NCBI RefSeq assembly: GCF_025151045.1
Contig: NZ_CP102285.1
Span: 434,001 to 498,000 of the forward strand
Origin: Parabacteroides johnsonii DSM 18315
Lineage (GTDB): Bacteria; Bacteroidota; Bacteroidia; Bacteroidales; Tannerellaceae
Length of the DNA stretch: 64,000 nucleotides
Reading direction: 5' to 3'
A program made the position numbers and the translations under genes. Of the stretch, positions 10,753-15,368 are shown piece by piece. Below the pieces are notes generated by a model. That model worked only from the letters and a program-made list of their open reading frames with translations. It did not search any database and had not been told where the DNA came from. Position 1 is the first letter of the stretch. Each line of letters opens with the position of its first letter.

Positions 10753-11418
10753 ATGAAAAAGATAGTATTTAGTATTTGGTTGATAGTGGCTGCTTGCTCG
10801 GTGGCAGTGTTATGTTCGTCTTGTGGAAAAAAGGAAGAACGCGGCGAGTTGAAACGTATCTGGTATAATGGGAGCTATAACCGTGATTTCAAGGATCTGA
10901 ACGATGTACATCTGGCCGAAGCGAAACGTATCGGTATTCAACCTGCATCGAATCGTGAAGAAGCGGAAAAAGTAAAAAAGGAGATGGAGGAGATCGAAAC
11001 CAACGAATATTATGAAGTGGAAAAGCTGACGCATTCCATCCCATATCTGATCCCTTCGGCGGCACAGTTGCTGGAAGATATCGGACATAATTTCCAGGAT
11101 TCCTTGCGTAATCTGAATGCTTCGATCTATAAAGTCAAAGTGACCAGTGTCACCCGCACGGTCGATGATGTCAAGAACCTGAAAAAAAGAAATACCAATT
11201 CTTCCCAAAACTCGGCTCACCGCTACGGAACGACCTTCGATGTCTCCTGGGTTCGCTATACTAAAGTAGACGAAAGCGATACCCTGAATATAGACAAGGA
11301 CCGGTTGAAAATGGTATTGGCAATGGTTTTGCGCGATTTGAAAAGGGAAGAGCGCTGCTATGTCAAACACGAACGCAAGCAAGGTTGTTTTCATATAACC
11401 GTCCGGGAAAAGAAATAA
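10753..11418 (+). CDS. DUF5715 family lipoprotein, M15-peptidase-like
   Basis: A predicted envelope lipoprotein of 221 residues. It has a short signal peptide (MKKIVFSIWLIVAACSVAVL) and the lipobox LCSSC. The C-terminal half contains T-S-V-T-R-T-V-D-D-V and N-S-A-H-R-Y-G-T-T-F-D-V-S-W. The H-x-x-G-x-x-x-D arrangement resembles the zinc ligands of M15/VanY-type D-Ala-D-Ala carboxypeptidases, so a peptidoglycan role is plausible but inferred. I prefer ATG 10753 over 10729, which overlaps the promoter. It sits 30 bp before the helicase-nuclease gene on the same strand, so the two could be co-transcribed. Confidence 0.8.
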   Translation: MKKIVFSIWLIVAACSVAVLCSSCGKKEERGELKRIWYNGSYNRDFKDLNDVHLAEAKRIGIQPASNREEAEKVKKEMEEIETNEYYEVEKLTHSIPYLIPSAAQLLEDIGHNFQDSLRNLNASIYKVKVTSVTRTVDDVKNLKKRNTNSSQNSAHRYGTTFDVSWVRYTKVDESDTLNIDKDRLKMVLAMVLRDLKREERCYVKHERKQGCFHITVREKK

Positions 11419-11448: not shown

Positions 11449-14400
11449 ATGGACAAAAAACTACTGAAATACTGGAAAAACTGCCTGCTGGATGCCGAAC
11501 GAAGGAGCAGGTCGCTAACGAAAGAAGCGCGGGTTACATTGCGGATTGGTGATAAGCTTCCGGAATTTATACTTCGTAAAGATATTCCCTTGCTTTTCCC
11601 CAAAGGGAAGCAAAAGGAGAATGACGAGAAACGTAAAATACAGATTGCTCCTTGTGTCTTTCTTCCTGAGTACGAGAACGGATGGACTTCCAGGCAGAAT
11701 GCCCCGGAATATCCCTTTCTGATTTCCGCGACATTATTGCCGGACGGAACTTTTCAGGTCTGTGACAATAAGTCTGAACGTATTCCGGTTTTTGTTCGTA
11801 AGTTTCTATCTCCGAATGCACGCAATGACAGGACTGTTGCCTCTCTTTCGAATGTGGACCGGCTTTTGAGCGAGTTCGATACCGAAGAGACGGATTGGAA
11901 GAAATACTGGAGTGCTTGCGAAACCTTGTTTCAGGATGCGACCGGCTTGACTTTCCGTGAAATGAACTATGCCGACAAGCCTGAAATCATCGTCGTGAAA
12001 GCTCCCGGACGTGGAATGGCACAAAAGATCATCAACCTGTATGACAAACTATTGGAAAGTAAATCTTCCCACCCATTACTGGAACTTCTGATCCGTAAAA
12101 AGCAGGAAACATTGCTACCGGTACCGGAAAAACAGCAAGTCTATTGCAATAGAACCCATTGGGCACAGATGAGTGGCGAGTTCCCGTTGTCTGTTTCCCA
12201 ACGTGAGACGCTTGCCATGTATACAGAACCGGGCAGTTCCGATATTTTTGCAGTTAACGGACCTCCGGGAACAGGCAAAACAACTTTTTTGCAGACAGTA
12301 ATTGCCAACCGGATCGTCCATACCGTGCTGGAGCATCCTGATGATCCGGATATCATTGTAGCCAGTTCGGCCAATAACCAGGCGATAACCAATATTCTGA
12401 AAGATTTCAAGGTCGAACAGCCTTCTGACGGTAAGCCTGTAAATCTGCTGACTCTCCGCTGGCTGCCCGGTTTGGATACGTTGGGATTGTATCTTTCCGG
12501 TAAAGACGAGCAGAAGGACCAGTACAAAATGATGTTCAATACGAAAGGTGACGGCTTTCCAAATGATTATGACGATCCTGCCCGGCTGGAAGAATATCGT
12601 GGATTCTATTTGGAACATTTCAATCGTTTTTTTCAGGCATCCTGTCAGAATGAAGTTGAGTGTCAGCGCTTCCTTCGCAAGAAAATGAAGAAGATACGGG
12701 ATGAGATTGGAACCTGCTTGAATGTAGCCTCTCTCAAACAGTATGGAAAAGAGATGGCGGATAAAGGTTTCCTGAGTAGACTGCTCCGTAAATTTCAGAA
12801 ACTTCCGAGCTATGAAGCTATGATAAGCGACTGGGAGCAGACGGCAGATTTTAAAGAACGCTATGACAAGTTGATTGTCAACTCAGAATATAAATCCCTT
12901 CCTTATACGGAAGATATGGCGGTACGGCTGGATATCAGCTACCGTTATCTCTTGTTCTGGTATGCCATCCATGACCGGGAAGCCGAGTTCATCCGCCGGT
13001 TGGCCGAATGTGACAAAGAAGGAGAGACGCGTGGTCGTGAGGACTATACCGAACGGCTGAAACGTTTGGCCTGTGTGATGCCTGTCTTTATTTCGACTTT
13101 CCATTCTTTGCCGAAATACATGGTTTGTGTGGACAATGGAGAGTGGGATGCGCCGCTCTATGATGCGATCGATTTGTTGATCGTGGATGAATCAGGGCAG
13201 GTGTCTCCTGAACTGGCTATTCCGTCTTTCAGCCTTGCCAAGCAAGCCATTTTGGTGGGAGACGTGGAGCAGATCGAACCGATATGGTCCATCTCGGACG
13301 AATATTCCAGTATCAATCTGCAACGTTTCGGCCTGATTTCTTCCGAATTTGATGATCGGTATATGTTCCTGCATGAGAACGGTTTCCTTTCCTCATCCGG
13401 AAGCATCATGAAGATGGCGCGGAAGAGTTGCAATTTCGAGGTCGCCGGCGAAAGAGGCGCCTTCCTGACCGAACACAGACGTTGCCTCGATCCGATCATT
13501 GCTTATTGCAACGACTATGTGTATCATGGCCGTTTGCTGCCGAAGAAAGGAAACAAGGTGAAGTATAAAGACCTGCCACCTAAAGGGTATGTCCATGTAA
13601 ACGGAGTTAGTGAAAAGGGAGCGACGGGCAGTGTATTGAACAAGGCGGAGGCGGCCGCAATCGTCTCCTGGCTGGAGAAAGAAAAGGGAAATCTGGAAAA
13701 CGCTTACAAAAATCCGGTTTGTAAAATAGTGGCGATAGTCACTCCTTTTAAAGCGCAGGAAGAAACGATCCGTCGCTTTGCAGAACGGTCGCCGGAGGCG
13801 GAAGCGTTTGCCGGTATGACGATCGGTACCGTTCACTCTTTACAGGGGGCGCAGTGCCCGGTCGTGATCTTTTCATCGGTCAATTCTCCCGGTGATGCTT
13901 CTTATTTTATGGAACAAGGTGGAAAGTACAATATGCTCAACGTGGCTGTTTCGCGTGCGCAGTATCATTTCCTGGTGTTCGGGAATATGAATATATTCCA
14001 TCCTGAACAGAATACACCCGTCGGTAACCTGGCAAAATGGTTGTTTGACGATCCGGCGAACGAAGTGTCCGGCAATTTTATCTATCGGCAACAGGAACCG
14101 CTTTGTCGCTATCAGCCGGCCGAACGTTTATCGACATTGGAGGAACACACCGGTTTGTTGCGGCAAGCCTTTAAAGAAGCGACAAAAAAGTTACTGATCG
14201 TATCTCCTTTTATATCGATCCGGGCGATCGAACATGATCACCTTATTCCCCTAATGCGGGAAACGGTGGAGCGGGGTGTGGAAGTCGTGGTGTATTCGGA
14301 CTTCCGCTTGGATTGTGACAAACAAACCGGTTTGTTGGGGAAAGAGGCCGATGCCGGTCGGAAGGCTTTAGTTGAAAACGGGATTAAGTTGATTTTGTTG

Positions 14401-14937
14401 AAAGGCATTCATAATAAATCGCTTGCAATTGATGATTCGGTATTGGTGGAAGGTTCCTTTAACTGGCTTTCTGCAAGTAGAAATGGGATTTATTCCCGTC
14501 ATGAATGTTCCGTGAAACTGATTTCTCCGGAAGCAACGAAGCATATTTCAAACTTAAGAAAGGAGTTGGACGCAATAGAACCGGAGTCCGTTCTTTTCGA
14601 GCCTATTCCTGTCTCTGTAACGAAACAGGCTCAGGTCGGGAATAAGAATTGTCCGGGTTTCTTTGATGCCGAACCTGTAAACCACTGTACGAATGAAGAG
14701 ATGGCCGGTTTCAAAGAGCGTATCCGGCAACTGGGGGTCAAGAAAACGGACGTTTCCGAGTCGATAATGAGAGTTCGTAAGCAATATCCTCGTCATTATG
14801 AAACATGGTCGGATGAGGAATGCCGGATATTACAAGAGTTGATGCAAAAGACGAATGATTTGAATCTATTTTGTTCCTGCTTCCAACGGACTCCGGGCTC
14901 GATCCGTATAAAAGTAGAAGGTATGAATCAGAATTAG
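11449..14937 (+). CDS. Upf1-like SF1 helicase fused to a phospholipase-D nuclease domain, Mokosh type II-like
   Basis: A 1162-residue cytoplasmic protein with three recognisable parts. (1) An SF1 helicase of the DNA2/NAM7/Upf1 class (COG1112-like): Walker A GPPGTGKTT at 271-279, Walker B DESGQ at 580-584, GDVEQIEP at 604-611, TEHRR near 674-678, GTVHSLQG at 793-800 and NVAVSRA at 831-837. (2) A PLD-type phosphodiesterase at about 900-1030, with one HKD-type motif (H988, K990, D995/D996) followed by GSFN at 1002-1005; a single motif implies dimerisation. (3) A C-terminal SANT/Myb-like helical domain at about 1118-1158 (E-T-W-S-D-E-E, ending F-Q-R-T-P-G-S-I-R-I-K). The helicase-PLD fusion matches the described type II Mokosh anti-phage architecture; the assignment is inferred from domains. 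All core motifs look intact. Confidence 0.88.
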   Translation: MDKKLLKYWKNCLLDAERRSRSLTKEARVTLRIGDKLPEFILRKDIPLLFPKGKQKENDEKRKIQIAPCVFLPEYENGWTSRQNAPEYPFLISATLLPDGTFQVCDNKSERIPVFVRKFLSPNARNDRTVASLSNVDRLLSEFDTEETDWKKYWSACETLFQDATGLTFREMNYADKPEIIVVKAPGRGMAQKIINLYDKLLESKSSHPLLELLIRKKQETLLPVPEKQQVYCNRTHWAQMSGEFPLSVSQRETLAMYTEPGSSDIFAVNGPPGTGKTTFLQTVIANRIVHTVLEHPDDPDIIVASSANNQAITNILKDFKVEQPSDGKPVNLLTLRWLPGLDTLGLYLSGKDEQKDQYKMMFNTKGDGFPNDYDDPARLEEYRGFYLEHFNRFFQASCQNEVECQRFLRKKMKKIRDEIGTCLNVASLKQYGKEMADKGFLSRLLRKFQKLPSYEAMISDWEQTADFKERYDKLIVNSEYKSLPYTEDMAVRLDISYRYLLFWYAIHDREAEFIRRLAECDKEGETRGREDYTERLKRLACVMPVFISTFHSLPKYMVCVDNGEWDAPLYDAIDLLIVDESGQVSPELAIPSFSLAKQAILVGDVEQIEPIWSISDEYSSINLQRFGLISSEFDDRYMFLHENGFLSSSGSIMKMARKSCNFEVAGERGAFLTEHRRCLDPIIAYCNDYVYHGRLLPKKGNKVKYKDLPPKGYVHVNGVSEKGATGSVLNKAEAAAIVSWLEKEKGNLENAYKNPVCKIVAIVTPFKAQEETIRRFAERSPEAEAFAGMTIGTVHSLQGAQCPVVIFSSVNSPGDASYFMEQGGKYNMLNVAVSRAQYHFLVFGNMNIFHPEQNTPVGNLAKWLFDDPANEVSGNFIYRQQEPLCRYQPAERLSTLEEHTGLLRQAFKEATKKLLIVSPFISIRAIEHDHLIPLMRETVERGVEVVVYSDFRLDCDKQTGLLGKEADAGRKALVENGIKLILLKGIHNKSLAIDDSVLVEGSFNWLSASRNGIYSRHECSVKLISPEATKHISNLRKELDAIEPESVLFEPIPVSVTKQAQVGNKNCPGFFDAEPVNHCTNEEMAGFKERIRQLGVKKTDVSESIMRVRKQYPRHYETWSDEECRILQELMQKTNDLNLFCSCFQRTPGSIRIKVEGMNQN

Positions 14938-14966
14938 CGTTTGGCTTTCCTGATTCATACCTTCTA
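14915..14966. terminator. Bidirectional terminator between the helicase-PLD gene and thioredoxin gene
   Basis: A 17-bp perfect inverted repeat (14915-14931 with 14950-14966, 18-nt loop) covers the last codons and the stop codon of the helicase gene. It lies 23 bp from the end of the convergent thioredoxin gene. T-rich tracts are weak, so efficiency is uncertain. Confidence 0.65.
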
Positions 14967-14988: not shown

Positions 14989-15342
14989 TTATAAGATGCC
15001 TTCGATCACTTTGCGAAGTTCCGGTTTCCCCATCGTGCCGAGCATCATCTCTTTATTCCCATCCATACGGCAGAGGAGTAAAGTCGGGATCGTCCGGATC
15101 TTGAAAGCGGCTTCCAGTTCTTCTTCGTTGTCTACATTTACTTTATAGATGTAGAGTTTTCCGTCGTATTCTTTTGCGAATTCGTCGAGTATCGGCTCCA
15201 GACGTTTGCAATAGCCGCACCAGGGGGCATGAAAGTCTACGATACAAGGCTTGTCTCCTACATATTTCCAATCTTTGGGGTTTTCTTCGAAGTTTCCTAC
15301 TCGCTGTATAAATTCCGCTTTTGTTAATTCAATCGGTGTCAT
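14989..15342 (-). CDS. trxA: Thioredoxin family protein
   Basis: A cytoplasmic thiol-disulfide oxidoreductase of 117 residues. The thioredoxin fold is complete, with the active site W41-C42-G43-Y44-C45. The usual Pro is replaced by Tyr, giving CGYC rather than CGPC, a common Bacteroidales variant that may shift redox potential. The cis-proline segment T-I-P-T-L is present. I chose the ATG at 15342 (MTPIELTKAEF), because the 21 residues of a longer frame are an unlikely extension and overlap the promoter region. No signal peptide. It converges on the helicase gene and is divergent from the ECF sigma gene. Confidence 0.9.
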   Translation of the reverse strand: MTPIELTKAEFIQRVGNFEENPKDWKYVGDKPCIVDFHAPWCGYCKRLEPILDEFAKEYDGKLYIYKVNVDNEEELEAAFKIRTIPTLLLCRMDGNKEMMLGTMGKPELRKVIEGIL

Positions 15343-15368
15343 ATTGTTTCCTTTTATAATTGATATTG

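Follow-up and report, generated by a model that had tools for sequence, protein, structure and literature searches.

Does the long open reading frame (ORF) at 11449..14937 on the forward strand of a 64,000-nucleotide stretch of Parabacteroides johnsonii DSM 18315 DNA encode an anti-phage protein, and what is the domain that ends it? The stretch, here called the window, belongs to a genome present as a single contig of 4.75 Mb. The ORF is open for 1162 codons, and its product matches the PADLOC MkoC model with a total of 1021 bits, in addition to matches in Pfam. With a probability of roughly 0.7 we assign the gene as mkoC, whose product makes up by itself a type II Mokosh anti-phage system, here with a clade-specific C-terminal Myb/SANT-like module. 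Because the PADLOC Mokosh II model recognizes mkoC, the gene itself is not new. The new element is the tail, which was probably gained once, together with its kinship to tails on other defense and repair enzymes.

MkoC is composed of an N-terminal region, a superfamily 1 (SF1) helicase of the Upf1/COG1112 type, a phospholipase D (PLD) family nuclease domain, and the Myb/SANT-like tail. The helicase region (residues 241-860; 12169..14028, forward strand) contains the sequences GPPGTGKT at 271-278, in which K277 is the Walker A lysine, DESGQ at 580, GDVEQ at 604, EHRR at 675, TVHSLQG at 794, and NVAVSRAQ at 831, which we take to be motifs I, II, III, IV, V, and VI, respectively. The PLD domain (residues 885-1045; 14101..14583, forward strand) has the motif HNKSLAID at 988 and GSFN at 1002. 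Residues H988, K990, D995, and G1002-N1005 are invariant in all eight aligned rows, and D996 varies. The Pfam models AAA_11, AAA_12, and PLDc_2 (904-1035) each exceed their cut-offs, and the predicted fold of the nuclease domain agrees with the PLD assignment made from sequence. A first-pass annotation of the window had proposed intact SF1 motifs of the Upf1/COG1112 type and a PLD motif formed by H988, K990, D995/D996, and GSFN, and had called for a check that the C-terminal region really is PLD. The helicase motifs were all located, and PLDc_2 and the predicted fold bear out the nuclease; of the PLD motif only D996 falls away as an invariant position.

The match to the PADLOC MkoC profile (PDLC03924) runs in two stretches, covering profile positions 3-433 and 555-1133 of 1136, with positions 434-554 unaligned, and stops at residue 1041 of the protein. 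As the profile is matched in these two stretches at 1021 bits, we regard the system as type II Mokosh itself and not merely as Mokosh-like. The first-pass annotation had left it as a Mokosh-like or sister system; the kinship stands, but sister status is discarded, with 1021 bits for MkoC against 108 for the next family. The profiles of type I Mokosh (PDLC03920-03922) gave 108 bits for the helicase and 53 bits for the PLD stretch, and type I was rejected because the window system is a single ORF with no kinase family in it by Pfam. What defines type II is present here: an SF1 helicase with intact motifs, a PLD domain C-terminal to it in the same chain, and a profile match over most of the length. 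From this family membership we infer a function in defense.

The C-terminal extension (residues 1046-1162; 14584..14934, forward strand) lies beyond the end of the MkoC profile match. Its last part, residues 1110-1162 (14776..14934, forward strand), is the Myb/SANT-like module, as judged by profile comparison, alignment, and a structure model of the tail. All Pfam models stayed below their cut-offs on the window tail; Myb_DNA-bind_6 scored 15.4 and 17.4 bits where 22.9 are required. No curated family so far recognizes the MkoC copy of the module. When the MkoC tail profile was aligned by hhalign with four other such tails, the probability was 95% and the score 45, compared with a maximum of 14.8 when the columns were shuffled 100 times. 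W22, L30, R49, and I54 are invariant in all 13 aligned tail rows. Modeling of the tail alone gave a trihelical fold at modest confidence, with the conserved tryptophan at helix 1 and the R..G-I signature at helix 3; the full-length model was poor and did not show the third helix. The SANT/Myb-like domain of the first-pass annotation is thus upheld by these comparisons, direct Pfam support being weak.

The tail is present in 8/8 MkoC rows of one Bacteroidales clade and in 0/10 of the rows examined outside it. In a midpoint-rooted tree of 18 rows, the eight rows with the tail group together as a single clade (support 100/100). Besides the clade, the tree holds the row G414 and nine plasmid-borne MkoC proteins that we picked among 40 listed of 744 matching plasmid records, so the outside rows are a small selection; two of the eight tail rows are near-copies. 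The tail region is filled over 75-94 of 94 residues in the clade rows, the 75-residue row being one in which the contig ends, versus 0-14 in the other ten. Likewise, in five clade members that are complete and were measured, 145-157 residues follow GSFN, versus 40-65 in seven outside MkoC proteins with the exact motif, and two further outside proteins with a GSYN motif also terminate shortly past it. The tail is a real, Myb/SANT-like, and, in the rows examined, clade-specific element, for which a single gain in the clade appears the simplest reading.

Modules of this kind were also seen at the C termini of many unrelated Bacteroidales proteins: McrC, GmrSD, Abi_2-like, UvrD, RecQ, DUF3276, and methyltransferase-HIT proteins (loci L118 163-1716; L120 1471-2424, reverse strand; L121 1-1656; L122 1498-3162, reverse strand; and L127-L155). 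The MkoC tail is a divergent copy of this module, having 12-25% identity to 12 other tail rows and lacking their SR..KL end. Its kin bear on what the tail might bind. Trihelical domains serve nucleic-acid binding and protein contact alike, and a SANT-like module that holds a partner or a dimer, instead of contacting nucleic acid, is a possible if less favored explanation. The divergence of the last helix in the MkoC copy and the missing SR..KL end would fit such a role, as would the weak conservation of linker plus tail, which are 36-40% identical to the P. vulgatus and B. mediterraneensis proteins compared with 73-74% for residues 541-860. Against it, of 12 kin proteins scanned by Pfam, the majority of those assigned to a named family are enzymes that act on nucleic acids, and the weak fold matches of the tail are headed by DNA-binding proteins (Reb1, Spo0J, and Myb). 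By analogy with these kin, the tail of MkoC could anchor the enzyme to DNA, and it may set target choice. A broader proposal, which we consider doubtful, is that Bacteroidales immune enzymes share a detachable C-terminal Myb/SANT-like module through which unrelated nucleases and helicases (Mokosh, McrC, GmrSD, Abi, UvrD, RecQ) dock on a common nucleic-acid state or host partner, and that MkoC gained it once and was then tuned to sites of phage replication or transcription.

The distribution of mkoC is patchy and accessory at the level of the genus, as expected of a defense gene. With one genome per species, a full-length MkoC relative (E up to 1e-100) was found in 5/38 genus genomes including that of the window, or in 4/26 of those at least 90% complete. 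The first-pass annotation had named universal presence in all strains of the species as evidence for housekeeping; across the genus, presence was not universal, and a housekeeping gene was ruled out at this level. Of 393 genomes sampled evenly across the order, four match at E up to 1e-40; two belong to the genus, and one of the two others (G134) has a helicase-only protein. The MkoC profile matches 11/395 genomes of the phylum at E up to 1e-60 and is followed to its PLD end in three of these (G000, G059, and, as two ORFs, G638); the remaining eight matches extend only to profile positions 947-972.

Several incomplete or split relatives were also noted. Proteins at four loci (L087, L088, L089, and L034), about 900-1000 residues long as read, match the MkoC helicase and end short of the PLD domain. 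They might be relatives that consist of the helicase alone, or proteins that work alongside a separate nuclease. At G638:C1:325543-329074, helicase and PLD are covered jointly by neighboring ORFs of 798 and 436 codons. In Bacteroidaceae bacterium IMSAGC_004 (L029 3944-7404) mkoC is split into two overlapping ORFs and is therefore either broken or affected by a sequencing error. A sequence record from human feces, listed as "Bacteriophage sp." and unverified (MT837470.1, 1-6807), has frames that read as PurC, PhoH, DUF5715, and MkoC; it resembles a piece of Parabacteroides chromosome and is probably chimeric at its end.

The gene upstream of mkoC in the window (10756..11418, forward strand) encodes a DUF5715 protein (PF18979, E 1.2e-72) with what we read as a lipobox, and mkoC starts 30 bp past its stop in the same direction. 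Downstream lies a convergent thioredoxin gene (14989..15348, reverse strand; PF00085). These are the lipoprotein and thioredoxin recognized in the first-pass annotation, and neither is part of the system. The DUF5715 gene was rejected as a partner of mkoC, since it occurs in 33/38 genus genomes and 28 of those lack mkoC. A hairpin at 14915..14966, with perfect 17-bp arms at 14915-14931 and 14950-14966 (RNA fold -31.1 kcal/mol, z -6.8), covers the last mkoC codons and stop between the convergent genes and is probably a terminator common to both. In four genomes without mkoC, the DUF5715 and thioredoxin genes overlap tail to tail, and in a fifth the gap between them is less than 100 bp. In three genomes mkoC sits exactly between the two; in another (G020) the order is DUF5715, mkoC, and a sigma factor gene, the close thioredoxin gene being missing, and in one more the contig ends within mkoC. 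No direct repeat brackets mkoC, and no integrase was noticed among the neighbors named by Pfam. The nine neighbors so named are UbiE, SAICAR synthetase, PhoH, sigma-70, FecR, shikimate dehydrogenase, phosphopantetheinyl transferase, GldD, and a CNNM/CorC protein. PADLOC applied to ten window proteins, nine of them within 7.5 kb, returned only generic ATPase matches of PhoH, in keeping with the earlier impression that there is no visible defense island. A defense hotspot was not supported either: in places where DUF5715 adjoins other genes, these resemble, read by eye from their translations, glycoside hydrolases, an outer-membrane receptor, a fumarase, a threonine dehydratase, or a Lon protease.

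This setting of a single gene among housekeeping genes, close behind the co-directional DUF5715 gene and in the same place in four close genomes, would also suit a helicase-nuclease that is resident in this Parabacteroides clade and serves the quality control of RNA or DNA (Upf1-like surveillance, or repair), having been domesticated from a Mokosh forebear and lost its mainly anti-phage use. So would the ratio of nonsynonymous to synonymous substitution (dN/dS), which is well below 1, at 0.02-0.36 in every MkoC region in four pairs among the four close genomes, being less certain for the pair involving G059, where dS is near 1. We nevertheless judge a resident role improbable. The gene was not found in 33/38 genus genomes, including the five in which its flanks abut or nearly do so, the protein matches the MkoC profile, and relatives in other genera adjoin defense candidates. 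In B. mediterraneensis (L031 3200-9447), mkoC is directly downstream of a PDC-S53 match (1244 bits), with ~80 bp between that match and the aligned start of mkoC, possibly as one operon, and an mREase_IV match lies farther along (four neighbors scanned). In P. vulgatus ATCC 8482, mkoC is near a PDC-S01 match (five neighbors scanned), and an MkoC relative on a Vibrio plasmid adjoins drt3a/drt3b. Also unlikely is a neutral tail carried along after gene fusion: the dN/dS of linker plus tail (0.16-0.33) exceeds that of the most constrained region, the helicase core (0.02-0.09), in each of the four pairs, but it is still well below 1, the three closest pairs share 94-96% identity in the helix-turn-helix part of the tail (77% with P. 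acidifaciens), and the tail is kept in all eight clade rows from at least three genera.

The mechanism of Mokosh is listed as unknown in two papers (PMC12926258; PMC12135933), and no mechanistic study of it was found in the literature searched. The order of parts in MkoC suggests a sensing helicase joined to a cutting domain, and for its defense activity, substrate, dimerization, and tail target we infer the following scheme. The Upf1-type helicase would bind and move along single-stranded nucleic acid, either RNA or DNA, and serve as the sensor. Two MkoC chains would then pair to form one PLD active site, which would cut the engaged strand with no need for a metal ion. Such a dimer is expected because each chain carries a single HxK motif; Nuc, NucT, and BfiI share this feature, and in them two chains pair into one metal-independent PLD site. 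The tail would add a contact whose most likely target is double-stranded DNA or a partner bound to DNA. Held close to the template in this way, the enzyme might cut phage transcripts or intermediates of replication at the site of their synthesis. A natural tail in one clade and not in sister lineages offers a clean handle on whether a DNA-binding-like domain sets the target of a helicase-nuclease, and the like tails on other defense and repair proteins suggest a reusable part bearing on several systems.

Among known proteins, NucT of Helicobacter pylori, Nuc of Salmonella, and BfiI have the same fold as the modeled PLD domain of MkoC; to our knowledge, none of them is fused to an Upf1-type helicase. 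The CnuH proteins of CoCoNuT systems are, like MkoC, UPF1-like SF1 helicases of defense systems, one type having a winged helix-turn-helix-PLD effector (PMC11090510). However, CnuH is encoded with McrB/McrC GTPase partners, and no such gene is among the named neighbors of the window mkoC. Type I Mokosh (MkoA and MkoB) has a helicase and a PLD stretch related to those of the window protein, but there the domains are divided over two genes and a kinase domain is present (PMC11672841), compared with one gene here. The type II MkoC proteins share with the window protein the arrangement of N-terminal COG1112/Upf1-type helicase and C-terminal PLD nuclease in one chain, and the window protein differs from the 10/10 outside-clade rows examined by ~95-115 additional residues after the PLD domain. 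In those residues it has in common with the tails of Bacteroidales McrC, GmrSD, Abi_2-like, UvrD, RecQ, and DUF3276 proteins the tryptophan at helix 1 and the R..G-I signature at helix 3.
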